The notes beneath the pieces are model-generated. The model ran no database searches, had not been told where the DNA came from, and saw only the letters and a program-made list of their open reading frames with translations. From Candidatus Shapirobacteria bacterium (GTDB taxonomy: Bacteria; Patescibacteriota; Microgenomatia; UM-FILTER-40-11), in the NCBI GenBank assembly GCA_020059745.1, contig JAGVBK010000002.1:168301-206435 (forward strand): a stretch of DNA of 38,135 nucleotides. The letters run 5' to 3'. Every line of letters begins with the position of its first letter. Position 1 is the first letter of the stretch. Positions 20,681-38,135 of the stretch are shown one piece after another. The position numbers were made by a program, and so were the translations under genes.

Positions 20681-20764
20681 AATTTTCAAATTCCAATTTA
20701 CAATTTACAATAAATTTACATTGACTCATTGAAATATTAAAACATTCAATTCTGCCGACAGGCA
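20681..20764 (+). repeat. Heptanucleotide repeat array upstream of the TsaC-TsaE gene
   Basis: Units TTTTCAA, ATTCCAA, TTTACAA, TTTACAA in register (20683-20710), then CATTGAA/ACATTCAAT elements and a small palindrome TGCC-GACA-GGCA (20753-20764). The first 20 bp are identical to 32479-32498. The array also contains a possible promoter for the next gene: TTGACT (20721-20726), 18 bp, TTCAAT (20745-20750). Confidence 0.7.
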
Positions 20765-25301: not shown

Positions 25302-26496
25302 TGGTTTTAAAAACCGACTTTCTTTTTGCTTTTAAAAGCAGGCTTAAAAGTATAATGTAATAACCCCAAAAAAGCCAAGGCTGAAAAACCGTAAACTGAA
25401 CCTGAAAAAACTTTATACTGGCAGAAGCGTTTATGATCTGCTCAATATAAAAAAGCAAAGGAAAAATAAGATAAGATGGGATAATTGCCAAATTTGTCCA
25501 CAAAAGCCCGGTTAAGCCAATAACAAAGCCTGCTTCAAGGATAAAAGGAATCGGCCACAAAATAAGCAAATTAACAAAAGGTGAAGCTAAATTAAGCTGA
25601 CCAAAGCTGCTAATTAAGACCGGCAGTGTGGTTATTTGGGCAGCTATAGTTGAAGAAAAGTTACTGTTTTTAAAAAGGAAAAAGCCTGAGCTTTTCAAGC
25701 AAGGCTGGACAAAAACCAGACCGGCAGTGGCTAAAAATGAAAGCTGAAAGCCAATATCCCAAAGCAAAAAGGGCTCAAAAAAGAGCATGAGCCCGGCAGT
25801 AAGAAAAAGAACCCGACCCGAACTGGTTTTCCTGCCAATGATTTGGCCAAAATATACTAATGTGGCCATGACCGCAGCCCTGACAATCGGCGGGTTAAAA
25901 CCGCTCATAATACTGTAAAACCATATCAAAATAAATAAAAATAAGATAGCTTTTTTTCTCTTAAAAAAGAGGGTTAAAAAAGAAAGGCAGCCTTCAGAAA
26001 CCATGGCAATGTTCATTCCCGAAGCCACCATAATGTGAAGCGTGCCTGTTTGTTTGAGCTTCTCATAAAAGGAGAAGGAAATAAGCTTTTTGTCTCCCAA
26101 AACAATGCCGGAAACAATGCCGTCAAAAGGCCTGGGGAAAACAGAATTAAAAACATGCCTTAGTTTTTGCCTTAAATTAATAGCCGGGTTTTGTCCTTTT
26201 TTTTCGCTTATAAGCTCAATTTGAGGATAAGAAAGAAAATAACCAGCCTTATCCGCTTGTTTTATCTCCCCTTTTATAGTGAGCTTCTGACCAAAATCAT
26301 ACTCCGGATAGCGGCCAGTAAGAATCTTAAATCTTCCTACCTTAAGAAACTGAGAGTTGTCAAGAATTTCCGGCTCGCTTGACAAAACAGTTGTAATCTT
26401 AACCTTGTCTCCTTTTGAAAAACTCTTTTCATTCCAAAACAAAAAACGAAGCGAAAGTAAAATAGCCAAAAGAAGAAAGACTGCGTTTTTTGCCAT
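25291..26496 (-). CDS. comEC: ComEC membrane channel part (competence domain)
   Basis: A 401-residue polytopic membrane protein, the DNA-uptake channel of natural competence. A short N-terminal OB-like segment (TTVLSSEPEILDN ... LTIKGEIKQADK) is followed by the competence domain: FDGIVSGIVLGDKKLIS, TGTLHIMVASGMNIAMV (signature), FNPPIVRAAVMATLVYFGQIIGRKTSSGRVLF and DIGFQLSFLATAGLVF. It stops after the last membrane helices and lacks the MBL domain, which is encoded by the next, overlapping gene. The ATG overlaps the comEA stop (TAATG). Order comEA-comEC-comEC' matches classical competence operons. Confidence 0.93.
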   Translation of the reverse strand: MAKNAVFLLLAILLSLRFLFWNEKSFSKGDKVKITTVLSSEPEILDNSQFLKVGRFKILTGRYPEYDFGQKLTIKGEIKQADKAGYFLSYPQIELISEKKGQNPAINLRQKLRHVFNSVFPRPFDGIVSGIVLGDKKLISFSFYEKLKQTGTLHIMVASGMNIAMVSEGCLSFLTLFFKRKKAILFLFILIWFYSIMSGFNPPIVRAAVMATLVYFGQIIGRKTSSGRVLFLTAGLMLFFEPFLLWDIGFQLSFLATAGLVFVQPCLKSSGFFLFKNSNFSSTIAAQITTLPVLISSFGQLNLASPFVNLLILWPIPFILEAGFVIGLTGLLWTNLAIIPSYLIFPLLFYIEQIINASASIKFFQVQFTVFQPWLFWGYYIILLSLLLKAKRKSVFKTNAF

Positions 26497-27089
26497 TAGT
26501 AAACCTTTATCTCGTCTTTAATCGCCTCCCAGACATTGCTTTTGACAATCTTTTTTTCCAAAAGCTCTTCCGGCTTTTGATAAGGTCTGCCTTCAATAAT
26601 CTTTTTAGCAGTCGCCTCCCCAACTCCCCACAAAGTATCAAGCTCCGCCACCGACGCAGTGTTTACATTGATTTTTGAAGGCAAATCAGGCAAATTAGAC
26701 GAATTAGACAAATTCGATAAATTCGATAAATTCGAAGACTCGGCAGGAATAAAAATCTTGGTTCCATCCTCAAGTTTCATGGCCAGGTTTATATTTCTTG
26801 AAACCCATTGCCTGTCTGCTTTAGCAGTATAGCCGCCCCCCTTAATAAGCAAATCATTCACCCGACTGCCAGATTTAAGCTCGTAAACGCCAGGATTTAT
26901 CACTTCTCCAGCAATCTCAGCTATCAAAACCTCGTTTTCGTCCACTTGCGGCTCTTCTTCAAAAATTTCAACCTCTGTTTTCTCGGTTAAAGAAGAAATT
27001 TTAAAAATTAAAAAACCGGCACCGATTAAAAAAACACCAGCCAAAAATAAACCTAAAGCTTTGTTTTTCCCTTCTGCCTCTATTTCCAT
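26496..27089 (-). CDS. comEA: ComEA-like DNA receptor
   Basis: A 197-residue membrane-anchored DNA-binding protein for transformation. One membrane helix at about 12-30 (LGLFLAGVFLIGAGFLIF), an SLBB domain at about 53-115 (VLIAEIAGEVINPGVYELKSG ... IFIPAE), a Ser/Asn/Leu-rich linker encoded by 9-bp repeats, then a helix-hairpin-helix pair (INVNTASVAELDTLWGVGEATAKKIIEGRPY). It passes double-stranded DNA to the ComEC channel encoded downstream. First gene of the operon; a 12-bp inverted repeat overlaps its probable promoter. Confidence 0.93.
   Translation of the reverse strand: MEIEAEGKNKALGLFLAGVFLIGAGFLIFKISSLTEKTEVEIFEEEPQVDENEVLIAEIAGEVINPGVYELKSGSRVNDLLIKGGGYTAKADRQWVSRNINLAMKLEDGTKIFIPAESSNLSNLSNLSNSSNLPDLPSKINVNTASVAELDTLWGVGEATAKKIIEGRPYQKPEELLEKKIVKSNVWEAIKDEIKVY
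26683..26736 (+). repeat. 9-bp tandem repeats in the comEA linker
   Basis: Six 9-bp units: AAATCAGGC, AAATTAGAC, GAATTAGAC, AAATTCGAT, AAATTCGAT, AAATTCGAA. They encode SNL/SNS/PDL triplets in the flexible linker between the SLBB and helix-hairpin-helix domains. Unit number could change without a frameshift, so linker length may vary between strains. Confidence 0.75.
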
Positions 27090-27092
27090 TTT

Positions 27093-27127
27093 TTAATTAC
27101 ACTACCTTCTTTATATAGTGTAATTAA
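27093..27127. promoter_or_regulatory. Inverted repeat upstream of comEA, operator candidate
   Basis: Perfect 12-bp arms TTAATTACACTA (27093-27104) and TAGTGTAATTAA (27116-27127) around an 11-bp centre. On the minus strand the dyad covers a plausible -10 (TATATA or TATAAA), with a weak -35 TTTAAA 17 bp upstream, just before comEA. A repressor binding here could control the competence operon; an RNA hairpin is the alternative. Confidence 0.4.
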
Positions 27128-27166
27128 TACCACATTTAAAACAGTTTTTCCTAAAAGTATTTTTAA

Positions 27167-27195
27167 TTGAATTTTTTTTTATTATTAACTACTAT
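27167..27195 (+). promoter_or_regulatory. Promoter of the kinase-like membrane protein (leaderless)
   Basis: -35 TTGAAT (27167-27172), 17-bp spacer, -10 TACTAT (27190-27195), then 7 nt and the ATG at 27203. The TTG of the -35 box could be mistaken for a start codon 12 codons upstream. Confidence 0.5.
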
Positions 27196-27202
27196 TTATT
27201 TA

Positions 27203-27931
27203 ATGCCCCAAAAAGATAACCAAAACCGCCAGCTTTTTTTAAACGCTTTTTTCTTGGTCTTAGCCATATTCCTGGTCCGCATGTGGTCTCATTCCCCTTT
27301 TTCGAAAGAGTATGATCTTTTTTTAACCTGCTTAATTGTTTTTGCCTATTTTGTTTACCGGATTTTCTTTAGTACTAAAGAAAACCTGGGTTTTGACACC
27401 ATCTTTTTTACCGTTATTATCCTTTTTATCCTCTCTTCTACCGGCGGCCTTAACAGCTCTTTTTTCTTTTTGCTTTATTTCCTTCTTTTCTTGGCTGCTT
27501 TTTTCTTAAACCCGATTGTCCTTTTTGCCCTGACTTTTTCATTAGTTGCTTATTTTACAAATGAGCTTAACTCCCTTCATGGCGGGCTTCAGCTTTTATC
27601 TCTATTTCTAATCGCGCCTTTGGCAGTGTTTTTTAGCAAACAATACTTAAAGCTCCTTGAAAGCCAGAACAAAATTAAAGTCCTGAAAACAAAAGAAAGC
27701 AAGCTTGGAAAAACCGTCAGTAAAGAAGAAACCGATTCCCTTTTCTTTCTTTCCTTAAACTTTAAACAAGGGCTTTTAAGCATTATTCACGAAACAAGCG
27801 AGCTTCTGGCTGATTTAGGCAGTTTTAATCTCAGCCAAAAAGAAAAACTGCAAAAAATCCATAAAAACGCTAAAGAGCTTTTAGAGTCTGGTAAAAAATT
27901 GCAAGAAAAAATAGATAAAGAAACAGATTAA
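27203..27931 (+). CDS. Membrane sensor resembling a histidine kinase without its ATPase domain
   Basis: A 242-residue protein with about six membrane helices in the first 150 residues. The phrase SSTGGLNSSFFFLLYFLLFLAAFFL is typical of sensor kinases with integral-membrane sensory regions. A coiled-coil signalling helix follows (about 152-185), then a helical hairpin (about 185-240) that resembles a dimerisation/phosphoacceptor domain: LNFKQGLLSIIHETSELLADLGSF, with a histidine in the IIHE context. It ends there, with no N, G1 or G2 box and so no ATPase domain. It could be a regulator, a phosphotransfer partner or a truncated kinase. I chose the ATG at 27203 over an upstream TTG because the latter is the -35 box. 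Confidence 0.6.
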   Translation: MPQKDNQNRQLFLNAFFLVLAIFLVRMWSHSPFSKEYDLFLTCLIVFAYFVYRIFFSTKENLGFDTIFFTVIILFILSSTGGLNSSFFFLLYFLLFLAAFFLNPIVLFALTFSLVAYFTNELNSLHGGLQLLSLFLIAPLAVFFSKQYLKLLESQNKIKVLKTKESKLGKTVSKEETDSLFFLSLNFKQGLLSIIHETSELLADLGSFNLSQKEKLQKIHKNAKELLESGKKLQEKIDKETD

Positions 27932-27949
27932 TAATGTAACAATGGTTCA

Positions 27950-28714
27950 ATGGAACATTCAATGAAAACTGTAAATTGTAAATTGAAAATTGCATTCGCA
28001 ATCTTGTTACTTGTTACTTGTTACTTGTTACATATAAAACCTGCTTTTTCCAAAATGGTTTCTGAGGATTACGAACTGCAGATGCCAAACCTTAATTTTT
28101 CCTCAGGCAACATGTCTTCATCGGGAATTAATCTGGGTTTTACCGGCGGTCAAACCGCTTCCGGCGAATACAGCCGCGACGGCTACAAGCTTTTGGCCGG
28201 GTTTTGGTATCTTAAAACCATTATCCCTTTTACTTTTACTGTTTCTAATCAGGTAATTGAATTCGGCAGTCTCTCTGCGGGAGTGCCAAGCCTGGCTACT
28301 ACAACCTTAAGTGTCTCCTGCGGCGGTGCCGGCGGGTACCAGGTCACTGCCCAAGAAAACCACCAACTAATGGCTTTTTCAACCGGAGGCTTAATTGCCG
28401 ATACCACCGGCGATAGTGGTGATATTACCTACTCCAATGCTGGGCTTTGGGAAAACAATACTACCTATGGCTTTGGTTATACCATGCATGGCCAAGATGT
28501 TCCTACTCCCTTTCCCACAGCCTCGCCTGCCGGCAATTATTATAAACAGTTTGCTGACGCTTCAAACAGCGAAGGCCCGGAAATCATTATGTACTCAGAA
28601 AGCGTTGGCAAAAACCGTACGGCCACAGTTACCTATAAAATCAACATCTCTGCTTCCCAACCTGCCGGAAGATACCAAAATGTTATTACCTACATTGCCA
28701 CACCGACTTATTAG
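27950..28714 (+). CDS. Exported WxL-like surface protein
   Basis: A 254-residue exported protein. Signal peptide about 1-33 (or from M5), ending KPAFS. Much of it is encoded by repeats: residues around VNCKLKIA by TAAATTG units and the hydrophobic core LLLVTCYLLH by four CTTGTTA units. Residues 38-75 hold a short Gly/Ser-rich segment (MVSEDYELQMPNLNFSSGNMSSSGINLGFTGGQTASGEYS-type). The C-terminal domain (about 85-254) is a beta-rich unit ending AGRYQNVITYIATPTY, which closely parallels the end of the protein encoded at 30118-31497 (SGLYRTALTYVATPTF). This ending resembles Gram-positive WxL domains. It would pair with the DUF916-like protein at 29085-30065. Confidence 0.7.
   Translation: MEHSMKTVNCKLKIAFAILLLVTCYLLHIKPAFSKMVSEDYELQMPNLNFSSGNMSSSGINLGFTGGQTASGEYSRDGYKLLAGFWYLKTIIPFTFTVSNQVIEFGSLSAGVPSLATTTLSVSCGGAGGYQVTAQENHQLMAFSTGGLIADTTGDSGDITYSNAGLWENNTTYGFGYTMHGQDVPTPFPTASPAGNYYKQFADASNSEGPEIIMYSESVGKNRTATVTYKINISASQPAGRYQNVITYIATPTY
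27972..28030 (+). repeat. Two heptanucleotide arrays at the start of a surface gene
   Basis: TAAATTG, TAAATTG, AAAATTG (27972-27992), then four perfect CTTGTTA units (28003-28030). Both lie inside the signal-peptide coding sequence. The 19-bp sequence attgtaaattgaaaattgc (27975-27993) recurs exactly at 29134-29152 at the start of another exported gene. Confidence 0.8.
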
Positions 28715-28747
28715 CATTAATAATTTTCAATTTACAATAAATTTGCA

Positions 28748-29080
28748 ATGACTCAATTTACAAATAAATATAATCTTGAAGAAAGAACAGCTAAGTTTGG
28801 AGAAAGTATCATTAACTTCTGCAGAAACCTTTCTCAAGACAATATTTCTTCTCCTTTAATAAACCAGGTTGTACGCTCTTCAACCAGCGTCGGGGCAAAC
28901 TATAAAGATTTTGAAAATAAAATTTTTATATGCAAGAAGGAATCGCAAGAAACAAAACACTGGCTAAGAATGCTTGCAAATTGCTTTCCTGACAGAAAAG
29001 AAGAAATCAGAAAACTTTGGACAGAGGCCCAAGAATTAACCATGATTTTTCAGAAGATTACCAGTAGTTTGAATAAATGA
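28748..29080 (+). CDS. Four-helix-bundle protein (S23/IVP family)
   Basis: A 110-residue protein of the four-helix-bundle family known from 23S rRNA intervening sequences and from Avd-like proteins of diversity-generating retroelements. Family features: YNLEERTAKFGESIINFCRNL, VVRSSTSVGANY, FENKIFICKKESQETKHWLRML, and a final helix LWTEAQELTMIFQKITSSL. Between GANYK and DFENKI it lacks about ten residues (EAD.A.SKK-type) that are usual in the family, so helix 2/3 is shortened. No retroelement reverse transcriptase or rRNA gene is nearby. Despite the S23 label it is not a standard ribosomal protein. Confidence 0.8.
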   Translation: MTQFTNKYNLEERTAKFGESIINFCRNLSQDNISSPLINQVVRSSTSVGANYKDFENKIFICKKESQETKHWLRMLANCFPDRKEEIRKLWTEAQELTMIFQKITSSLNK

Positions 29081-29084
29081 TTAA

Positions 29085-30065
29085 ATGAAGTATTTAAGGA
29101 AAAGCCCCGCGAAGCTTGAGCGAAGTGGGATAAATTGTAAATTGAAAATTGCGTCAATATTATTAATCATACTCACTCTAATTGCCAGGCCCGCAAAAGT
29201 TTATGGACAAAGCTTATCTTTGTCCATTTGGCCGCCGCTTCTTGAAATAATGATTCAGCCCGGCCGGACAGTCACCCATGTTTACCGACTGACAAACAAC
29301 TCTGAGCAAGAGCTTTTGGTAACCCCTTACCTTTTCGCTTTTGAGCCTTTAAATGAGTTTGGACAGATAAAAATAAAAGAGTTATCTGCTACCGGTGGTC
29401 AGCAATCAGGAAATTTTTTCTCTTTTGAGTCCAGGGAAAAGTTCGGTGAGCCTTTCCCTGTTCCGATTAATACTACCAAAGAACTGGTGCTAAAAATTCA
29501 TATTCCTCCGGAAACTTCTGAAAATGATTATTATCATACCCTTCTTTTTTCCACGGCGGAAACTGCTTTAGAAAAAGAAGGAGCAGAAGGAAAAGCCGGT
29601 TCTGTTACCCAAATCGGCAGCAATATCCTCTTAACTGTTTCCAAAAGCGGCAAGCCTGAACTTTTGGCCAGGATTGCCAAGTTCTCCGCCCCTTTTTTGA
29701 TTGATTCTTTTTCTGAGACAAACCTGGAGCTTATTCTGGAAAACTGGGGAAAAGCGTTTTGGAAACCTTTTGGAAAAATTGAAATTACCGGCCTTTTTAA
29801 TCAAAAAGAAGAACTTAAGGTGCTCGAACAAAATGTTTTGGCAGGATCAATGCGCAAAATAAATCTCGAACCTTTTTCTCCCAAAATTCCTCTTGGCCCT
29901 TTTAAGGCAAAACTTGTTTTCTCGCCTAACGAAAACGGCCAGAGCCTAAACGAGGAGGTTGTTTTTTGGTACTTTCCTTTTAAGGTGGTAATTTCTGCCC
30001 TAATCTTTCTTTTTGTGTTTTTCCATGTAAGAAAACTGGCAAAACGAAGACAAAACAGCTCTTGA
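29085..30065 (+). CDS. Exported DUF916-like membrane protein
   Basis: A 326-residue exported protein. The first 23 residues (MKYLRKSPAKLERSGINCKL...) are encoded by repeat DNA, and the hydrophobic export segment IASILLIILTLIARPAKVYGQ follows. Residues 43-185 form a DUF916-type sandwich (LSIWPPLLEIMIQPGRTVTHVYRLTNNSEQ ... TTKELVLKIHIPPETSENDYYHTLLF). Residues 190-290 form the second domain (LELILENWGKAFWKPFGKIEITG). A C-terminal membrane helix (about 301-319) is followed by a basic tail. Starts 4 bp after the four-helix-bundle gene. Probably served the WxL-like proteins on either side. No Shine-Dalgarno; GTG/TTG alternatives are possible, because the native start may have been replaced by the repeat. 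Confidence 0.75.
   Translation: MKYLRKSPAKLERSGINCKLKIASILLIILTLIARPAKVYGQSLSLSIWPPLLEIMIQPGRTVTHVYRLTNNSEQELLVTPYLFAFEPLNEFGQIKIKELSATGGQQSGNFFSFESREKFGEPFPVPINTTKELVLKIHIPPETSENDYYHTLLFSTAETALEKEGAEGKAGSVTQIGSNILLTVSKSGKPELLARIAKFSAPFLIDSFSETNLELILENWGKAFWKPFGKIEITGLFNQKEELKVLEQNVLAGSMRKINLEPFSPKIPLGPFKAKLVFSPNENGQSLNEEVVFWYFPFKVVISALIFLFVFFHVRKLAKRRQNSS
29104..29137 (+). repeat. 34-bp repeat, left copy of an inverted pair
   Basis: Thirty-four bases beginning GCCCCGCGAAGC and ending GATAAATTG, followed by heptamers TAAATTG and AAAATTG. The exact reverse complement is at 32492-32525. Contains GCGAAG twice, 5 bp apart. Read as codons it gives PAKLERSGIN at the start of the protein encoded here. 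Confidence 0.9.
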
Positions 30066-30091
30066 CAAGGGGTTGCTAACTATTATTCAAT
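30062..30091 (+). promoter_or_regulatory. Possible promoter of the 459-residue WxL-like gene
   Basis: -35 TTGACA (30062-30067), overlapping the previous stop codon, 18-bp spacer, -10 TTCAAT (30086-30091). The -10 is weak. The ATG lies 26 nt downstream without a Shine-Dalgarno. Confidence 0.3.
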
Positions 30092-30117
30092 AGATATTAA
30101 AGAATAAATAAAGCCAA

Positions 30118-31497
30118 ATGAAAAAAATCTTTTTAATCCTTATTCTTAGCGGACTTTTCCTTGCTTTTTCTTCAAACAAAGCCTATGCTGATGCCGGTAT
30201 TCTTATTAACGTAAAAGACACTATCTCTACCTCCAGGCCTTCTGCCTCAACCCCTTTAGCCGCTGACCTTGCTGTTGGCCAGGCAGCTGTCTCAATTGTT
30301 GACAACGGCAGCCGTTTTATCGCCTCTGACTCAGCTAAACTTTTAGGTGATACCTTGGAAACAATCACCATTGCTTCTATGTCAGCAGCCAGTGGCGGCA
30401 ACCGAACTTTATATTTTGCCACAAACAATACCGGTACCCACCACAAGGGAAGCGCGGTTATCGCTCCGGTTACAGCCAAACACACAATTTCTTTTACTAC
30501 CAGTAACGCTGTCCCCTCAAACGGCCGACTCCAGGTAATTTTCCCTGCCGGCGATACTACAAATGCTGCTTCTCCTTCGGCTTCCGGGTTTTCATTTAAT
30601 GGTCTTGAGAGCAGTAACATTTCTATTAACGGAGCCAGCTGCGGCAGCTGGACTATTACCCCTGCTTCAGGCTTAGTCCAATGCAATCTTTCTGTGGGTG
30701 TAAGCGCAAATGCTGAAGTAACAATCACTATCGGCAATTCAACTCCCCAGCTTATTAACCCCACAAAAGTGACTACTGCCGGAACTGCCGATCTTTGGAT
30801 TTTAACTGTCAGAACCCAGGACAGCGCGGCCAATATTATTGACAGTTCTAAAATAAAAATTGGGACTGTCGATTCGGTTGAAGTCTACGCTACGGTGGAT
30901 CCTGTTTTCACCTTTTCCATTGCCGGAATTAACAATGGATTAGCGGTTAACACCGGAAACGCTACCGGCTGCACTAACACAGAAACCATAAATACCGGCT
31001 TTAACTCGTCAGCTACGGAGGTTAATCTAGGCGCTCTGGGAAGGGATATTATTAACAGAAGCGCCCAGCTTATTACCATTACCACTAATGGCTCAGGCGG
31101 TTATGTTTTAACTGCCACCTCAAGCGGCCACTTAATTGACCCTGCTACCGGGTATTGGCTGGCTGATGCCCAAGGAACGCCAACCAACTATAATACACCG
31201 GCTCCGGCCTTTTTAACTGCCGGCACTACTGCTTTCGGTATTCACCCTTGCGGCCTTGATGTCACTACCGGAACCTGGGGATCAGGAGCTACCGGCGGAG
31301 GAGCTGGGGCCAAATATGCTAACCCCTCTCCCGTTTATTATTACAAGCTGGCTGAAGATACTGATGGTCCAGTTACAACCGATGTTACCGCTGGAAACGG
31401 CTTAATCACCGTGCAATATGCGGCCACTATTTCTGCGGTTGTTCCCTCAGGTCTTTACCGAACCGCTTTAACTTATGTGGCAACGCCAACTTTTTAA
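30118..31497 (+). CDS. Exported WxL-like surface protein
   Basis: A 459-residue exported protein, low in charge and rich in Thr, Ser, Ala and Gly. Signal peptide 1-25 (ending YADAG). Residues 26-260 hold one or two Ig-like segments (ISTSRPSAS..., HTISFTTSNAVPSNGRLQVIFPAGD...). The C-terminal ~200 residues form a beta-rich domain that ends VVPSGLYRTALTYVATPTF, the same ending as the 254-residue protein upstream. In Gram-positive csc clusters WxL proteins sit beside DUF916 proteins. The same order is seen here, with DUF916-like genes on both sides; the next starts 14 bp downstream. Confidence 0.75.
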   Translation: MKKIFLILILSGLFLAFSSNKAYADAGILINVKDTISTSRPSASTPLAADLAVGQAAVSIVDNGSRFIASDSAKLLGDTLETITIASMSAASGGNRTLYFATNNTGTHHKGSAVIAPVTAKHTISFTTSNAVPSNGRLQVIFPAGDTTNAASPSASGFSFNGLESSNISINGASCGSWTITPASGLVQCNLSVGVSANAEVTITIGNSTPQLINPTKVTTAGTADLWILTVRTQDSAANIIDSSKIKIGTVDSVEVYATVDPVFTFSIAGINNGLAVNTGNATGCTNTETINTGFNSSATEVNLGALGRDIINRSAQLITITTNGSGGYVLTATSSGHLIDPATGYWLADAQGTPTNYNTPAPAFLTAGTTAFGIHPCGLDVTTGTWGSGATGGGAGAKYANPSPVYYYKLAEDTDGPVTTDVTAGNGLITVQYAATISAVVPSGLYRTALTYVATPTF

Positions 31498-31511
31498 AAA
31501 AATTAATAAAA

Positions 31512-32468
31512 ATGAAAAAAGCCTGCCAAAAAAAGACAAAAATTAAAAAATCCCTCATAATTGCCATCATTTTCGGCCTTCTTTCCTTAATGGTCGGTTT
31601 AAGAAGAACTTCCGCCCAGACAAACCAAAGAACCTTTACTATCTCTCCTCCAACCATTAACTTTAACCTTGAACCGGGCAAGAGTGAGGAAAAAACGATT
31701 AAAATTACCAATAACTCTGCTGAGCCAATGACTTTTGTTATCGGCATTCAAGATTTTATTGTTAACGATAATTCCGGCACTCCCGAGCTTCTTCCCAGCG
31801 GCTTTAAGCCGGATAACAAATATGCTGCCTCAACATGGGCCACCGCTTATCCTGAACTGGTCACTGTTCAACCGGGTAAAACAGCCACTACCACTCTTTA
31901 CCTTCGGGTTCCGGGTAATGCCAGGCCAGGAGGAAAATATATTTCTTTAACTTTAAGACCGCTTAGTTCCGATTCTCCTGACGGCTCAGGGGCTGCGGTT
32001 AGCACTGTAATCGGCACCCTTGCCTACATTACTGTTGCCGGCGATGTTGAAGAAAAGGCCCAGATAATAAGCTTTACGGCCCCTACTCTTTCCGAGTATG
32101 GCCCAATTCCTTTTAACACAGAAATTAAAAACTTGGGCGACCTTCATATAAATCCAAAAGCAACGGTTGAAGTTAAAAACCTTTTTGGTAAAAAAGTTCA
32201 TTCCTTTGCTTTAGACAACCTAAACATTTTCCCCGGCACTTCAAGGATTTATGAAAACAACTGGGAAACAAAATGGCTTTTTGGCCGCTATACTGCCAAT
32301 CTCTCCGGTTATTACGGCCAGAATAACCAGCTTAACCTTGTGGCTCTTGCTTCCTTCTGGGTCATTCCCTACAAGCTAATTGCGATTGTTTTACTGGCTA
32401 CCGCCTTGGTTTTGATCACTGCCTTTTACCTCAAAAAAAGAAACGAACCCCAAGAGATAGAAGAATAA
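31512..32468 (+). CDS. Exported DUF916 membrane protein
   Basis: A 318-residue exported protein and the clearest DUF916 case in the window. Signal peptide 1-36 (ending TSAQT). DUF916 domain: FTISPPTINFNLEPGKSEEKTIKITNNSAEPMTF, a middle part with SGFKPDNKYAAS, then VQPGKTATTTLYLRVPGNARPGGKYISLTLRP. The second domain is at about 195-275 (FNTEIKNLGDLHINPKATVEVKNLFGKKV). A C-terminal membrane helix (about 286-306) is followed by KKRNEPQEIEE. It follows the WxL-like gene by 14 bp and is surely co-transcribed with it. Its likely role is to bind and hold that protein at the surface. Confidence 0.85.
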   Translation: MKKACQKKTKIKKSLIIAIIFGLLSLMVGLRRTSAQTNQRTFTISPPTINFNLEPGKSEEKTIKITNNSAEPMTFVIGIQDFIVNDNSGTPELLPSGFKPDNKYAASTWATAYPELVTVQPGKTATTTLYLRVPGNARPGGKYISLTLRPLSSDSPDGSGAAVSTVIGTLAYITVAGDVEEKAQIISFTAPTLSEYGPIPFNTEIKNLGDLHINPKATVEVKNLFGKKVHSFALDNLNIFPGTSRIYENNWETKWLFGRYTANLSGYYGQNNQLNLVALASFWVIPYKLIAIVLLATALVLITAFYLKKRNEPQEIEE

Positions 32469-32478
32469 GGTCCGGTCA

Positions 32479-32606
32479 ATTTTCAAATTCCAATTTATCC
32501 CACTTCGCTCAAGCTTCGCGGGGCGAGCAATTTTCATTAAATGTTTTATTGAATCAATGTTACATTGAAAATTCATTGTGAATTAAAAATTGTAAATTGT
32601 TAAAAT
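32479..32606 (-). repeat. Composite repeat block between surface genes
   Basis: Starts with 20 bp identical to 20681-20700. It then has the inverted copy of the 34-bp element (32492-32525), CATTGAA-type motifs, and at the right end heptamers AAAATTG, TAAATTG, TTAAAAT (32586-32606). The last unit forms the extended -10 box of the next gene. With 29104-29137 it brackets three surface-protein genes in inverted orientation. Confidence 0.85.
32598..32606 (+). promoter_or_regulatory. Extended -10 promoter made by repeat DNA (leaderless)
   Basis: TGT-TAAAAT, then 6 nt and ATG at 32613, exactly as in front of tsaD. An ATG at 32607 directly touches the -10 box and is unlikely to be the start. Confidence 0.45.
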
Positions 32607-32612
32607 ATGTTT

Positions 32613-33542
32613 ATGCTTCGAAAATTTATCTATGTTTTTTTAGCTTTAAAGCTTCTGAGTATTCCCTTTTTTTTCTTTCTCTTTAGGGAAAAACCCCGAG
32701 AAAGCGTTCTTTCTAGAATCACCCCGGTTTACTCGGACCCGGTTAATGTTTCCGGCCTTGTCGGCGCCGGCTACATGATTGAAAGCATCACCGGCTGGAG
32801 TTCTCCTTTTTCCGAGGTTAACCTAAGCTCGCCCAATCTGATAAGAAAAACAGTAGCTGATGAAAGCGGTTTTTTTGCCTTTTATCTTATCCCTGCTCCT
32901 GAAAATTTAGGAGAAATCTGCCTGGTTGCCCAAGATGTTAACCAACTTCCTTCTTACCCTGTTTGCCTTTCAAAAATTGAAAGAAGGGAAAACATCAAAA
33001 TTGAAAATATCTTGCTGCCGCCAACTCTTTTTTTAGAAGGAGGACAAATTATTGCCGGAAAAACCGTCAAAGCCTCGGGAATGACTTTTCCGGATACAAC
33101 TGTAGATGTTTATCTTTTTACTGAAAGAAAGGCTTCTTTAAGTGCTCTAATCCGCCAAGTAGTAAAAAGCCTTTTTGCAAAACCGGCAAATGCTTTTGGC
33201 TTGCCCGTATACCGGGTTAAGAGTAATAAAAACGGTTACTTCGAGTTTTCCCTGCCCGCTTCCTACCCCTCTCTAAACCGGATTTTTGTTGCCTCAAGCC
33301 TAACAAAAGAAAGCTTTGAAGAAAGCCACTCGCCTAAAAGCTTTACTCTTGCCTTTGAAACCATCGGTTTTTTGAAAAGTATCTTCCTTTTTCTGTTGGG
33401 CCTGATAAAAAGCATGTCTGAAGCTCTTAAGTCACCCAAAAGCATCTCATTTTACCTGATTATCCTGGAAATTCTTGCCCTGGCAGGGCTGCTTTTTTTA
33501 ATTCTGTTTGAAGGAAACAAAGCCAAAAAACAAAGAAACTAA
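32613..33542 (+). CDS. Exported beta-sandwich membrane protein
   Basis: A 309-residue protein with an N-terminal membrane or signal segment (about 3-23, KFIYVFLALKLLSIPFFFFLF), an ectodomain of about 210 residues and C-terminal hydrophobic helices (about 250-268 and 278-300) with a basic end. The ectodomain has two parts. One is a carboxypeptidase-regulatory-like sandwich (VNVSGLVGAGYMIESI ... TVADESGFFAFYLIPAP). The other (NILLPPTLFLEGGQIIAGKTVKASGMTFPDTTVDVYLF) resembles a segment of the dockerin-bearing protein (13649-14629). No catalytic motif. I do not recognise a specific family; a surface-assembly role fits the context. The start at 32613 was chosen from the promoter position. Confidence 0.65.
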   Translation: MLRKFIYVFLALKLLSIPFFFFLFREKPRESVLSRITPVYSDPVNVSGLVGAGYMIESITGWSSPFSEVNLSSPNLIRKTVADESGFFAFYLIPAPENLGEICLVAQDVNQLPSYPVCLSKIERRENIKIENILLPPTLFLEGGQIIAGKTVKASGMTFPDTTVDVYLFTERKASLSALIRQVVKSLFAKPANAFGLPVYRVKSNKNGYFEFSLPASYPSLNRIFVASSLTKESFEESHSPKSFTLAFETIGFLKSIFLFLLGLIKSMSEALKSPKSISFYLIILEILALAGLLFLILFEGNKAKKQRN

Positions 33543-33546
33543 ACAA

Positions 33547-33783
33547 GATTTACGATTTAAGACCTATGATTTATGAATAAAATAAAATCCTTTACTGATA
33601 TCAAGGCCTGGCAAGAAGGGCATAAGCTGGTTATTCTTATTTACGGTGTTACAAAGACATTTACTTAGAGGAGGAAGATTTTAATCAACTTGCAAATCAG
33701 GCAAACATTACACATCGGCTACTTCAGGGGTTAATCCAAAAATCAAAATCCTTCGTAAATCTTAAATCCTAAATCTTAAATCA
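33547..33783 (+). mobile_element. Decayed four-helix-bundle unit between inverted heptamer arrays
   Basis: Left array GATTTAC, GATTTAA, GACCTAT, GATTTAT (33547-33574); right array TAAATCT, TAAATCC, TAAATCT, TAAATCA (33756-33783). The arrays are inverted relative to each other and enclose the broken four-helix-bundle gene. Same architecture as the intact unit at 28722-29150. Confidence 0.4.
33573..33772 (+). pseudogene. Broken four-helix-bundle (S23/IVP family) gene
   Basis: The first 31 codons from ATG 33573 give FTDIKAWQEGHKLVILIY, the typical N-terminus of this family, and then hit a stop at 33666. In the next frame, from about 33662, the reading YLEEEDFNQLANQANITHRL and then LQGLIQKSKSF matches the usual C-terminal helix. 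The central two helices (roughly 50-60 residues) are missing and the two ends are out of frame. This is a deletion remnant. It belongs to a different subgroup from the intact gene at 28748. Confidence 0.65.
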
Positions 33784-33788
33784 ATCTA

Positions 33789-34214
33789 TTATTGGAAATT
33801 AACCGTTACTGTCTGGGGAATAGGAGTACCGCTGGCATAAGCTTGAATTTCGTATTTGCCTGTCATAGAAGAACTTACATCAAAAATTGCCTGCCCTAGA
33901 GTGTCAGTTTGCTGCTGAATGTCGGTAAAAGAAACACCATTGCAAGCTGCTGATTCTTTGCAGCCCACACTAACCAAAGCGTTGGCAATCCCCTTGCCTT
34001 GGCCGTCAAGAGCAAAAACAGTCACCCTAATCTTATCAAGGTTTGCTTTTGCGGTTATTGGAGAAGCAAAAACATAGGAATTTCCAGGGCTTAGCACTCC
34101 CGAACCGGAGGCTTTGCCAAAAAAATTTGTTCTTCCCGAAGAAAGATTAATAAGGATGTAAATTATTACCAAGAGGAAAACGGCTACTAAAATGAGGAGT
34201 AATGATCTTTTCAT
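33789..34214 (-). CDS. Small membrane-anchored Ig-like (Big_1-type) protein
   Basis: A 141-residue protein with one N-terminal membrane helix (about 4-24, SLLLILVAVFLLVIIYILI) and an extracytoplasmic bacterial Ig-like domain (about 50-141). The domain pattern is KIRVTVFALDGQGKGIANALVSVGC ... FTDIQQQTDTLGQAIFDVSSSMTGKYEIQAYASG, as in Big_1/invasin-like folds where TD..G.A.F..SS is conserved. Two cysteines (about 94 and 99) may form a disulphide. The ATG at 34214 is chosen because an upstream in-frame TTG at 34265 is the -35 box of a good promoter. Stands alone on the minus strand between repeat remnants. Confidence 0.7.
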   Translation of the reverse strand: MKRSLLLILVAVFLLVIIYILINLSSGRTNFFGKASGSGVLSPGNSYVFASPITAKANLDKIRVTVFALDGQGKGIANALVSVGCKESAACNGVSFTDIQQQTDTLGQAIFDVSSSMTGKYEIQAYASGTPIPQTVTVNFQ

Positions 34215-34235
34215 TTTGTTAATTAATCTAACACT

Positions 34236-34265
34236 ATTATGTAACAGCAAAAAACAAGAAGTCAA
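34236..34265 (-). promoter_or_regulatory. Promoter of the small Ig-like gene
   Basis: On the minus strand: -35 TTGACT (34265-34260), 18-bp spacer, -10 CATAAT (34241-34236). The start codon lies 21 nt downstream. Confidence 0.5.
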
Positions 34266-35081
34266 TAGGATTCTAAAAAAACAAGAAAACTTTATAAGAA
34301 ATTAACGCAAAATGTCATAATTTAGCTTTTCACAAATAAAAAATAGGTAAAAAAAGACGGTGGTTTTAAGAACATGGATAATGAAATGCTTTCGTTAAAA
34401 AAAGAAAACATGAATGTTGATAAAAAAATAAAATTGAAGCATTATCAAAGCATTTTTAAGCAAAAAAGGCCTTAGCAGTTAAAAGAATGAATTGCCATAA
34501 TCGTATAAATTATCAAGGGAATATCATTAAGTATTCGTGAAATAGCATTAACTTAAAAAAACAGTTCAATAAGACTTGGAATAAAAGAAAGGACACTCTC
34601 TTCCAAACTTAAAACAAAAAAAGCAAAAAAAATAGAGTTTAAATTAATGAAAGCAAGAAAAAAACAGCCAAAAAATAAATTAGCCTCGATAAATAATTTC
34701 CGCAAGTAAAAATAAGATAAAATAGAGACTTGATATATTTTGATGTTTAAATTTATTTATTAAATATACTTTGATAGTAGGTATTTCGTGTAAAAAGCTT
34801 AATGAAAACTGCGATACGGAAATTATTAATAATGTTTTTCGGGTTTTTTGCACTTTCTTTATCTAAAAGAAATCTACTTCTTAACTACACAAACTATATC
34901 AGTGATGTTTTCCAGCTTTGAATTAAACTAACCCTTTTTTTTACTAAGTTTTAAGAATATAACTCTACATCTACAAAAGAATGTACCTATATATCGGCAT
35001 AAAATTAAATCGATCCCCTGTTGTTATACCATTCTTTGCATTGCCTTTTCATTAAATCTGCAAATAGCCTCGAAGTGCCTG
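34266..35081. other. A-rich region without an intact gene; possible gene remnants
   Basis: About 0.8 kb of poly-A/T-rich sequence with all frames broken. On the plus strand a 33-codon reading frame from ATG 34374 ends at TAG 34473. From 34512 to 34709 another reading gives GISLSIREIAL and then GIKERTLSSKLKTKKAKK, with one internal TAA. The first part resembles a helix-turn-helix of a resolvase or transposase, and the pieces may be remains of one lost gene. From 34710 to 35081 I see nothing beyond A/T-rich sequence and, at its end, the promoter of the next gene. Confidence 0.3.
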
Positions 35082-35111
35082 TTGACACTATTTTTAAAAT
35101 TCTTTTATAGT
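35082..35111 (+). promoter_or_regulatory. Promoter of the core-binding-domain/tail-fibre operon
   Basis: -35 TTGACA (35082-35087), 18-bp spacer, -10 TATAGT (35106-35111). ATG at 35127 lies 15 nt after the -10, with no Shine-Dalgarno. One of the best promoter matches in the window. Confidence 0.6.
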
Positions 35112-35126
35112 AGATATATATATTCT

Positions 35127-35684
35127 ATGTATAATCCGTATAATTTTGAAGCTAACTCAAAAATTAAAGATTTCGACGAAATAATCGGAAAATTTAAACT
35201 TTACTTAAATACGGAAAATATCTCCAAAGGCTCAATTAGAAGCTACCTCTCAGATGCCCGTCATTTCCTTGGTTGGCTGGTTTCATTCTTAGAAGAAAAC
35301 CACATTATCGTCCCTAAAAGCCAAAAATTAAATGCTGAGTCGCTTTTGGGATTTGTCAACGAGAGGCTTTTAGAAGCCTACAAAGACTACCAACTGGGCA
35401 TTAATGTGCCGGTTAAAACAATTAACCGCCGTTTTTCAGCCTTAAGGAAGTTTGGTACCTTCTGCCAGGTTCGCTTGGATCTTAAAGTGAACATGTTTGA
35501 TACATTAAGAAATATTTCTAAAGAAGAAAAAATACCTAAAGTTGACTACCGGGTTGAAGATTTCAGGCTAGAGCTTTGGAAAAATAAAGCCAGTAAAACA
35601 ACAATTAAAAATTATTTAAACGATGTTAAACAATTTGTTTCCTGGTGCGAAACAGAAAAAGTTCAAATTATCCCTGAAGAATAA
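35127..35684 (+). CDS. Tandem SAM-like (recombinase core-binding) domain protein without catalytic domain
   Basis: A 185-residue protein made of two helical units like the N-terminal core-binding domain of tyrosine recombinases. Unit 1 (about 15-125): IIGKFKLYLNTENISKGSIRSYLSDARHFLGWL ... TINRRFSALRKFGTFC. Unit 2 (about 143-180): FRLELWKNKASKTTIKNYLNDVKQFVSWCE. The protein ends there; no RHRHY catalytic domain follows and none is in the next gene. It is therefore not an integrase. The next gene starts 3 bp later and begins with the same kind of unit, so the two products probably interact or bind the same DNA. Start ATG 35127 is set by the promoter; a TTG at 35082 is the -35 box. Confidence 0.7.
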   Translation: MYNPYNFEANSKIKDFDEIIGKFKLYLNTENISKGSIRSYLSDARHFLGWLVSFLEENHIIVPKSQKLNAESLLGFVNERLLEAYKDYQLGINVPVKTINRRFSALRKFGTFCQVRLDLKVNMFDTLRNISKEEKIPKVDYRVEDFRLELWKNKASKTTIKNYLNDVKQFVSWCETEKVQIIPEE

Positions 35685-35687
35685 ACA

Positions 35688-38135
35688 ATGGATACTGCCC
35701 AAATACTAGCCAAATATAAAGAACGCCTCGTAAAAGAAGGATTGTCCCCGGCCACGGTTGAAAGAAAGCTTTCCTCTGTGAGGGCTTATCTTTCTTTTCT
35801 TGAGTCTCAAAGACCTTCAAGCCCTCAGATTACAGATAAAGAAGTTGTTAAAAAACTTAAAGAGTTCGGAATAGAGATTCCGGAACCTAAACCTTCTTTT
35901 GTTTCCCAACTTCTTTTTGTGAGAGCTGCTAAAAAGCTCGGCAAGGCAGTTAAAGAAGCTCCAAACTGGCGCTATACCATTCCCTATAGCCTTAAGTACA
36001 AAAAACCGGTATGGCTTACAAGCTATCAAAACTCGCCTTTAAGCAAGTACATTAACTATTCTTTGATTATTATCCTTTGTGTGGCTTTGGGTATTGGCTG
36101 TTATGAAAAATTTGGTTTAAAATTTCTTGGTAACAAAGGTGGTGAGGTTTTGGGTTTACCGACTTCTACCCCCTCCTACCTTTCCTTTCAGGCAAGATTA
36201 ACCGACAATTTTGACAACCCAATTACTGTTTCCACTCATTTCAGGTTTACACTCTATTCTGACCCCACCGCATCCGGCTCTGCCAAGCTCTGGGAAGAAG
36301 CCAAATGGATTAAACCGGATAACGACGGTATATTTAATACTTTTATTGGAGATACAGTGGCCCTGGATAAAAGCATTTTCAGAGATAATACAGACCTTTA
36401 TCTAGGAGTCACTGTCAATGAAAATGAAGAAATGGTTGACCGTCAAAGAGTGGCCACGGTTGCTTATGCCTTTAATTCAGAGTATTTGCAAGGTTATGGC
36501 ATTGGTGAAAGCGGTGCTGCTGATACAAACCAGGTATTAGTGGTTAATTCAGAAGGTGACATTATTATTGCGGCTGCCAGCCCTTCCCTGCAATCAACCT
36601 CAGGCACTTTTACTATTGATGCTAAAACTATTTATTTGACTACTGCCGACAACGGAGATGTTCACTTAGACCCTGGCGGAACCGGCACTATAAACTTAAC
36701 CAGCCAAACTACATCAGGAAACGCCGTTAACGCTACCTCCTCTGCCCTAACTACTGGCAACCTTATTTACGGAGGCGTTTACAACAATAATACAGGCTAT
36801 AATTTAATTAACTTGGTATCTGGCACTGGTGCTACCTCGACTGCTAAATTTATTGTTGACGCATCCGGTAATGCATATCTTGCAGGAAATTTAGGTATAG
36901 GTGTTTCAAGCTCGATATATAACCTTGAAGTTGGTGGAACTTCCTCTTTTAACGACATTAAAATCAATGGAAGCTTGTTTGATACCGGTAATAACCCGGG
37001 AACAAACGGGTTTATCCTAAGATCTACCGGAACCGGAGTTTCTTGGAGTAATCTTTCTGATATTTCGGTTGGCAATGCCGATACTCTTGACAACCTTGAC
37101 AGTGCGGATTTTCTAAGAGCCACAGTCTCAGATACTTTTGAAAGCGGCAATACTTTAACCATAGCAGGTATACTCTCTACTACCGGCAATGCTTTTTTTG
37201 GCAACTATTCTGGAATATTGAGCTCTAGTGGCAATATGGGCATCGGAACGACGAATCCTGTGGCGAAGCTAAATGTAGTGACGGGTAAAACGTTAGCCAC
37301 AGGTGTAGCATTCACCACTTCAGACTATGTGGATACTACAACAGGATCTAAATTTGGATTTAGGTTTGGAGACACAACTGGCAATACTTATGGAGAAATG
37401 CTTGTGGTTACTGCTGGAGGTGGAGATGTTGGTAATTTGGTATTACAAGGGACAGGCGGCAACGTCGGCATCGGCACCACTGCCCCTACCTCAGGGTATA
37501 AACTGGATATAAATGGCAACTTAAGAGTTGGGTCTTCCGCTTACTTTGGCTCAACTGTTAACCTAAATAGCTTAACCGCTTCCCGGCCTTTAAAGCTTGA
37601 TGCAAATAAAAACATTGTATCTACCCAAATTGACCTTGCTTCAAGCAACGATGTAACTGGGATACTTGGAGTAGCTTACGGTGGCACTGGGATTAATGGA
37701 GGGACAGCTGCAAATGGAACCTTGCTGATAGGAAATGGTTCAGGGTATTCCCTTTCTACCCTAACCCAAGGAACAGGAATAGGAATCACTAGCGGTTCCG
37801 GAAGTATTACTCTTCATCATGCTGATACTTCTACCACCAGCTCCTCTAATAACTCAGATGGAACAGTTATCCAGGACATTACGCTTGATGGCATGGGACA
37901 CATTACCGGGCTTGGAACAGTTGACCTTGACTCAAGATATATTCAAAGCGCTGATGTTTCCTGGATACTTTCCGGAGACTCAGGCACTCCCCAGTCAATC
38001 GGCATCGGTAATACTGCCAGTGTCTTGGGAGGAGCCGGTCTTTCCTCAAGCGCTTCTGCCACTGATACCTTAACCTTAACCGTAGGAGAAGGCGTTGGCA
38101 TATCCGTTGGCCCTAATGATGTTTCCGTTAATGAG
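35688..38135 (+). CDS. Membrane protein joining a SAM-like domain to tail-fibre repeats (partial)
   Basis: Open for 816 codons to the window end, no stop. Residues 1-45 form a recombinase-type core-binding helix pair (ILAKYKERLVKEGLSPATVERKLSSVRAYLSFLES). A basic region (about 75-120) leads to one membrane helix (about 121-139, YINYSLIIILCVALGIGCY). Outside lies a domain (about 160-275) of the type YLSFQARLTDN ... LWEEAKWIKPDNDGIFNTFIGD ... LYLGVTVN ... RVATVAYAFNSEYLQG, followed by tail-fibre-like repeats: NADTLDNLDSADFLRA, GNMGIGTTNPVAKLNV, GGNVGIGTTAPTSGYKLDI, AYGGTGINGG, ITLDGMGHITGLGTVDLDSRY. The positive-inside rule puts the SAM-like part in the cytoplasm and the fibre outside. It looks like a cell-encoded adhesion fibre; no phage genes are nearby. 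Confidence 0.8.
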   Translation, partial: MDTAQILAKYKERLVKEGLSPATVERKLSSVRAYLSFLESQRPSSPQITDKEVVKKLKEFGIEIPEPKPSFVSQLLFVRAAKKLGKAVKEAPNWRYTIPYSLKYKKPVWLTSYQNSPLSKYINYSLIIILCVALGIGCYEKFGLKFLGNKGGEVLGLPTSTPSYLSFQARLTDNFDNPITVSTHFRFTLYSDPTASGSAKLWEEAKWIKPDNDGIFNTFIGDTVALDKSIFRDNTDLYLGVTVNENEEMVDRQRVATVAYAFNSEYLQGYGIGESGAADTNQVLVVNSEGDIIIAAASPSLQSTSGTFTIDAKTIYLTTADNGDVHLDPGGTGTINLTSQTTSGNAVNATSSALTTGNLIYGGVYNNNTGYNLINLVSGTGATSTAKFIVDASGNAYLAGNLGIGVSSSIYNLEVGGTSSFNDIKINGSLFDTGNNPGTNGFILRSTGTGVSWSNLSDISVGNADTLDNLDSADFLRATVSDTFESGNTLTIAGILSTTGNAFFGNYSGILSSSGNMGIGTTNPVAKLNVVTGKTLATGVAFTTSDYVDTTTGSKFGFRFGDTTGNTYGEMLVVTAGGGDVGNLVLQGTGGNVGIGTTAPTSGYKLDINGNLRVGSSAYFGSTVNLNSLTASRPLKLDANKNIVSTQIDLASSNDVTGILGVAYGGTGINGGTAANGTLLIGNGSGYSLSTLTQGTGIGITSGSGSITLHHADTSTTSSSNNSDGTVIQDITLDGMGHITGLGTVDLDSRYIQSADVSWILSGDSGTPQSIGIGNTASVLGGAGLSSSASATDTLTLTVGEGVGISVGPNDVSVNE

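Follow-up and report, generated by a model that had tools for sequence, protein, structure and literature searches.

Inverted Heptamer Arrays around Four-Helix-Bundle Genes Point to a Widespread Small Mobile Element of Bacteria

Introduction

Across bacteria, proteins that match TIGR02436 go only by the name of "four helix bundle protein" or "S23 ribosomal protein", and their annotation gives no role. The described system closest to the locus considered here is the intervening sequence (IVS) of the 23S rRNA of Coxiella burnetii, where three to four tandem heptamers, strain-variable in copy number, are found ahead of the S23p ORF, and where a segment of ~430 nt with a 28-bp terminal stem is excised by RNase III (PMC4990558, of which a part was available to us). 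In the available part of the same source, transposition of the IVS is ascribed to proposals by older authors. If TIGR02436 is the sole gene of a mobile element, many genes of this annotation would be explained, and there would be an origin for the rRNA IVSs and a source for some of the heptamer repeats between genes.

Several other systems share single traits with this arrangement. REPIN/RAYT systems and MITEs are small inverted units that are dispersed and have a single-gene relative, and their gene-less copies outnumber the gene-bearing ones. In eukaryotic foldback elements the inverted ends are composed of short tandem repeats. Heptamer repeats of cyanobacteria are known under the name STRR. 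Intergenic TAACTGA heptamers of cyanobacteria and Beggiatoaceae have been described as direct repeats (PMC4679880); the term "helix bundle" is absent from that paper, and no four-helix gene is described in the portion available to us.

Here, we analyze a four-helix-bundle gene in a window of 38,135 nt (the whole stretch of DNA under study) together with its relatives in other genomes. Our overall reading is that the gene belongs to a widespread small mobile element; no transposition step was observed.

The Element in the Window

The element and its neighbors are composed of the following parts:

27950..28714, + strand: upstream neighbor ORF; its conserved pairing with 29085-30065 marks the insertion site
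28722..28747, + strand: left heptamer array of the intact element (AATTTTC AATTTAC AATAAAT ...), period-7 score 8, with an exact 17-bp inverted partner at 29134-29150
28748..29080, + strand: four-helix-bundle gene, TIGR02436, S23p/IVP family, 110 aa, without nine conserved residues
29081..29130, + strand: spacer with the GC-rich module GCCCCGCGAAGCTTGAGCGAAGTGGG; an inverted repeat of the module is found at 32477-32524
29131..29153, + strand: right heptamer array of TAAATTG units, inverted relative to the left array, with which it pairs in the RNA fold
29085..30065, + strand: downstream neighbor ORF; the right array encodes part of its N-terminus

According to the original prediction, which was made from the sequence alone, an intact gene lies here between perfect 17-bp inverted repeats built from 7-bp units. 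The repeats (28722-28738 and 29134-29150) are exact as claimed: 17 is the longest exact inverted match of the 110-bp flanks, a length reached in 0 of 5000 shuffles (shuffled maximum, 13), and both arms are 7-bp periodic with period-7 scores of 8 and 12 as compared to 2-3 at other periods. The word "intact" holds only for the reading frame, which is open and whose product meets membership of TIGR02436 (47.8 bits, cut-off 24); because nine residues that are conserved in relatives are absent, the gene may be slightly decayed. Membership of PF05635 (23S_rRNA_IVP) was not met, with 31.6 bits, i.e., slightly below the gathering cut-off of 33.8. The AF2 model of the product is composed of four helices (mean pLDDT 91.4) and has the S23p fold, as Foldseek returned 2RLD and 2GSC at ranks 1-9. 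The DGR protein Avd (4DWL) was found at rank 12 with a probability of 0.98; the fold is thus shared, with weak HMM similarity, but Avd-like genes differ in that they adjoin a reverse transcriptase and lack arrays, and no PF00078 match was found in the genome of the window (G000).

In the predicted RNA fold of the unit, an 18-bp terminal stem closes the structure (z -2.65), and the element therefore has an IVS-like closing stem of terminal inverted repeats together with tandem heptamers. It is not located in a 23S rRNA gene; it sits between protein ORFs, and no Rfam match was found within 26000-38135. As far as the available part of the Coxiella source allows a comparison, the two systems share the protein family, the heptamers directly before the ORF and the terminal inverted stem, whereas the IVS resides in rRNA and is excised by RNase III, and the present elements are multicopy, lie between protein genes, have gene-less relatives and differ in unit from locus to locus. 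The further statement that no description of the arrangement was known is thereby narrowed: for the family in general, a literature search of incomplete coverage found no paper that ties it to inverted heptamer arrays, an absence that is weak evidence, but the available part of the Coxiella report already describes heptamers and a terminal stem at one member (PMC4990558).

With REPIN/RAYT systems and MITEs the element has in common that small inverted units are dispersed beside a single-gene relative and that copies without the gene are the more numerous; it differs by ends that are fixed in period and not in sequence, by tandem arrays, and by the lack of a Y1 transposase in G000. Of the traits expected of an IS element or MITE, a constant target-site duplication is lacking, at most 1 nt being duplicated in the gene-less insertion described below; the unit itself encodes no transposase, and of possible resident enzymes the two searched for in G000 (reverse transcriptase and Y1) are both absent. 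Eukaryotic foldback elements differ from this element, which is bacterial, lacks a transposase and has a 7-8 nt unit. The STRR and TAACTGA repeats resemble the present arrays in their 7-bp tandem units, their intergenic position and some of the groups in which they occur, from which we infer that they may be gene-less relatives. Ends that keep a period, are free in sequence and have matched arms that change together are unexpected in a transposable element, and this combination fits no mobile element known to us.

A Decayed Second Copy and Gene-less Arrays

Other parts of the window hold related features:

33547..33576, + strand: left array of a decayed second element, GATTTAN units
33573..33772, + strand: decayed four-helix-bundle gene, an N-terminal piece and a C-terminal piece in another frame, middle lost
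33756..33782, + strand: TAAATCT units that form the right array of the decayed element, which overlaps the gene at its 3' end
32477..32600, no strand assigned: gene-less array-bearing stretch whose own arms match weakly (arm score 11)
27963..28031, + strand: period-7 arrays without a gene that translate as the signal-peptide region of ORF 27950-28714
20681..20711, no strand assigned: gene-less, intergenic AATTTAC array, period-7 score 16

A broken second member between inverted 7-bp arrays had also been predicted, and this assignment is borne out. The arrays are inverted with a score of 18 (1 of 1000 shuffles), and the N-terminal piece of 30 aa and the C-terminal piece (33674-33769, in a different frame) align with a single protein from another genome, L037, at its residues 5-32 (18/28 identical) and 97-127 (18/31), respectively. 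Because the pieces match separate ends of a single protein, the middle of the copy has been lost. L037 is itself flanked by arrays of the unit of the decayed window copy (GATTTAA / TAAATCT).

Over its 48 nt, the segment 32477-32524 repeats 29104-29151, the right end of the intact element, in inverted orientation (96%); this repeat links the GC-rich module to the heptamer arm. A related GC-rich module without heptamers is found at G000:C3:299254 (L008). A TTTAGAG heptamer array (16374-16404) lies within ORF 15594-17018 on the minus strand. Gene starts with A/T-rich heptamer arrays translate as signal peptides, both in the window (27950-28031) and at the upstream ends of L279, L281 and L288; these peptides start with a Lys-rich part followed by one rich in Phe/Leu, as though gene-less units had been recruited for export.

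The genome of the window, 857 kb in five contigs, harbors five TIGR02436 genes, all five of which are, by eye, closely flanked by inverted arrays, each of its own unit. One of them, C3:59567, reached an inverted-match score of just 10 in the flank scan because its ORF end extends into the right array.

Enrichment of Inverted Arrays around the Family

An enrichment of inverted heptamer arrays around the family, which had been put forward as a check, was found in two samples. In 17 related genomes the left flank of each gene was compared with the reverse complement of its right flank, with a score of at least 14 as the main threshold; 90 places were found, of which 16 (weak, partial or long frames) were omitted and 74 were analyzed, one of these without a flank. 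The threshold was reached by 54/68 TIGR02436 genes as compared to 11/332 control ORFs, 6/106 ORFs having spacers on both sides and 9.1% of 263 shuffled pairings. At scores of at least 16 and at least 20 the counts were 51/68 vs 5/332 and 32/68 vs 2/332, respectively, and only 13/68 genes reached 14 in the direct orientation. The best period was 7 in 39/68 and 8 in 16/68 of the genes. None of five weak TIGR02436 matches (<37 bits) reached the threshold, and at least two of these are Avd-like genes beside reverse transcriptases (L023, L076).

The second sample was composed of 80 named loci, two of which were dropped, from Patescibacteria, Bacteroidota, Bacillota, Omnitrophota, SAR324, Nitrospira and others, together with one archaeal contig. 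Here, 64/78 loci scored at least 14 (18/208 neighbor ORFs; 30/307 shuffled pairings), and period 7 or 8 was best in 76/78. The same array design was observed on plasmids of cyanobacteria, Gemmatimonadota and Azospirillum. Genes below the inverted-match threshold numbered 14/68 in the related genomes and 14/78 among the named loci; exceptions include L105 and L101, where the arrays are direct and not inverted, and L103, which has no clear array. In an unbiased scan of random stretches, 7/973 ORFs scored at least 18.

A TIGR02436 match was found in 104/137 genomes of a sample of the class and in 0/14 well-known control genomes; the phage genomes searched gave no match. Copy numbers vary within one genus, with 5, 8 and 0 TIGR02436 copies in the single-contig genomes G019, G039 and G055.

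Sequence and Linkage of the Arms

The unit varies from locus to locus, while the two arms of each locus match. Common to the arms is an inward-facing YAG core: TAG is found 186 times in left arms as compared to 85 for CTA, and the corresponding numbers are 171 and 57 in reverse-complemented right arms; TAG is enriched 2.5-2.7-fold and CAG 2.1-2.5-fold over shuffles. Arrays that serve as stops in all frames were considered (99/201 inward and 58/201 outward, ~19% in shuffles) and rejected; since CAG shows an enrichment like that of TAG, a YAG core is the better explanation. The ends of the element are set by period, inverted pairing and the inward-facing core, and not by a fixed sequence.

The units co-vary with the protein (Mantel r 0.185, 0/300 permutations). 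Pairs with a protein score ratio of 0.6-0.8 share units in 28% of cases, as compared to 0.8-5% below that range. At ratios of 0.6-0.7 the arms of one locus match each other better (20.7) than arms across loci (11.8), with the higher value within the locus in 42/47 pairs; at 0.7-0.8 this linkage was not seen (18.9 vs 18.5; 5/9). That the unit follows the protein and that arms match better within a locus indicate that the arms travel with the gene and that both arms later change jointly.

Heptamers derived from the target or guided by microhomology were suggested by eye at several junctions but were not supported at seven sites, where own arrays matched the target no better than the arrays of others, and where 114-295 of 300 shuffled windows scored at least as high as the own array.

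Empty and Filled Sites

Empty sites in close relatives, the other check put forward, are present: array-free empty sites were found at most junctions examined, including that of the window gene. Among 11 other loci at the latter junction, inspected by eye, six are empty (L279, L281, L283, L286, L287, L288), three have gene-less arrays (L280, L282, L284), one (L278, from G016) harbors a gene of the GxxExxY family and one (L285) has a different upstream gene. At one junction in the class of the window (30 loci, by eye), L195, L196 and L199 are filled, and in at least five loci (L197, L206, L210, L212, L213) the genes overlap.

Insertion of whole units is also observed in cyanobacteria. Plasmids of Calothrix brevissima are filled (L096/L097), and in four relatives the genes are separated by 3 nt, without arrays. 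In Nostoc, L098/L099 are filled, L187-L189 are empty and L186 has the same left junction with arrays but no gene; within Nostoc ATCC 53789 alone, one junction is filled on plasmid a, the next one on plasmid c, and neither on plasmid b. Picosynechococcus PCC 7003 is filled and PCC 7002 is empty. Pseudanabaena L105 is filled, and its relative L227 has a short array of another unit and no gene, which indicates that arrays can arise or remain separately. The Anabaena loci L228/L229 were rejected as a filled/empty pair, the divergence being too great.

No regular target-site duplication was found; by eye, TTCTA is present at both ends of one site and no duplication at the others. The sense orientation is in modest excess (98/103 elements vs 95/110 ordinary genes, p=0.034; 23/149 were dropped for lack of a near neighbor on both sides), and the high background rate of ordinary genes weakens this orientation as an argument for an RNA mechanism. 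Insertion of the unit is intergenic and, within gene clusters, mostly in the sense orientation, with no regular target duplication.

Movement of Gene-less Units

At two sites the gene is less diverged than its surroundings: between L098 and L099 it is identical at 362/363 positions (99.7%) as compared to 82-89% in the TraM flank and 85-95% in the other flank, and between L231 and L235 at 362/366 (98.9%) with flanks at 90-93%. These same-site pairs could also be explained by recombination between plasmids. The pair L096/L097 looks, from the alignment, like recombination, because the gene and the integrase side are identical and the other side is 91%.

A gene-less unit was observed as an insertion. 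In L235, a 181-bp inverted-heptamer unit without a gene (777-957) interrupts the four-helix gene, with at most 1 nt duplicated, and L231 is the uninterrupted allele, 98.9% identical. The unit is a multicopy family of Nostocales plasmids, found at 101 places in 43 plasmid records, 26 of which cover at least 80% of the query; among the matches listed, most start and end near both insertion points. In random stretches, 43 gene-less period-7 arrays were found in 591 kb from nine genomes with at least five of the genes, and one in 260 kb from five genomes without them (G010 and G011 were counted as element-free although each has one weak match, of 23 and 25 bits, respectively); across 19 genomes, array abundance goes with gene presence (Mann-Whitney p=0.002). 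By eye, several of the gene-less arrays are inverted pairs with very short loops. Gene-less derivatives, i.e., paired inverted arrays with a short core, hence also move and multiply. This behavior is consistent with the predicted spread in trans, of which mobilization by the four-helix protein has not been demonstrated.

A Second Gene Family and Alternative Explanations

The array design had been tied to the four-helix family, where it is strongly enriched; it is not exclusive to that family, as inverted, locus-specific flanking repeats are likewise found at loci of GxxExxY (PD-(D/E)XK) genes (L302-L340 and L278). Of 36 such loci, seven were dropped (cut flanks or long fused frames), and L305, L306 and L309 were left out as partial or broken. 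Inverted flanks were found at 22/29 loci at a score of 14 and at 20/29 at 16, as compared to 20/172 and 10/172 shuffled pairings. These observations, together with the match of one member to PF13366 PDDEXK_3 (E=5.8e-33), lend some support to homing by a nuclease in trans, in which GxxExxY proteins would serve all members of the group by cutting or joining DNA, the four-helix units being passengers that reach empty alleles by recombination. Also in its favor are the elements younger than their flanks at the same site, the GxxExxY gene at the junction of the window gene in G016 and the ~0.7 kb that separate GxxExxY and four-helix genes in G008. We nevertheless consider this explanation unlikely: GxxExxY genes were found in just 5/19 relatives and are absent from G000, G004, G012 and G018, which harbor 5, 13, 7 and 6 four-helix genes, respectively, and their periodicity is weaker, with longer units and spread best periods, most commonly 10 (8/29).

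An element that moves as RNA, its stem-loop cut from the transcript by RNase III as in the rRNA IVS and returned to DNA by a reverse transcriptase supplied in trans, appears less probable still. It would account for the terminal stem of the window RNA, the sense orientation in clusters and the relation to Avd, and the available part of the Coxiella report provides a precedent for the excision (PMC4990558). However, PF00078 reverse transcriptase was found in only 4/19 genomes; it is absent from 15, including G000, G012, G013, G016 and G018 with 5, 7, 14, 10 and 6 TIGR02436 matches, and the Avd-like genes that do adjoin reverse transcriptases lack arrays. Y1 transposase (PF01797) is absent from 4/19 genomes (G000, G002, G010 and G018), and neither enzyme can be a general requirement since both are missing from element-bearing genomes. 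That the gene is not mobile at all is very improbable; on this view it would be an ordinary small gene of the host that regulates itself through operator arrays, or the arrays would be random slippage repeats near AT-rich spacers. In its favor, some genomes have many arrays near genes, L227 carries one in the absence of a gene, and the TAACTGA repeats were interpreted, in the available part of the source, as possible translational regulators (PMC4679880); against this stand the empty sites, the younger elements, the intragenic gene-less insertion with its 101 dispersed places, the restriction to periods 7-8 and arms that are both inverted and matched within a locus.

Proposed Mechanism

We favor, with a probability of roughly 0.7, a small mobile element of ~0.45-0.55 kb in which the four-helix gene lies between inverted 7-/8-nt arrays. 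Its anatomy, the insertion of whole units, the movement of gene-less units, the linkage of the arms and their co-variation with the protein rest on observation. The unit encodes no transposase, integrase or nuclease, and a fold-back element is the best remaining inference as to mechanism. The two arms would pair as single strands, in replication-exposed DNA or in a transcript, and this single-stranded intermediate is inferred, as is binding of the paired arms by the four-helix protein, which, as an oligomeric relative of Avd, could act as a nucleic-acid chaperone. The joining enzyme is inferred as well: host replication or recombination enzymes, or a nuclease in trans, would link the folded unit to its new site. 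Strand slippage in the arrays and template switching between the paired arms might keep the arms matched as their sequence drifts.

On this reading, the rRNA IVSs with S23p most likely represent members that inserted into rRNA genes. A wider view, which we hold tentatively and at somewhat less than even odds, is that these elements form an undescribed, nearly pan-bacterial mobile class, the ends of which are recognized by period and fold rather than by sequence. Its arms would be rewritten jointly, giving each copy a private heptamer; the small gene carried, for a four-helix chaperone or a PD-(D/E)XK protein, would be interchangeable or missing altogether; the rRNA IVSs would derive from the class, as would a large share of the heptamer repeats of cyanobacteria and of bacteria with small genomes; and signal peptides would repeatedly have been recruited from its A/T-rich arms.

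The filled and empty pairs make the idea testable in culturable cyanobacteria. On cyanobacterial plasmids, four-helix units are also found within CRISPR-cas operons (L105, L228 and L230; cas6/cas4, cas10/cmr3), where they could pass for CRISPR-associated genes.
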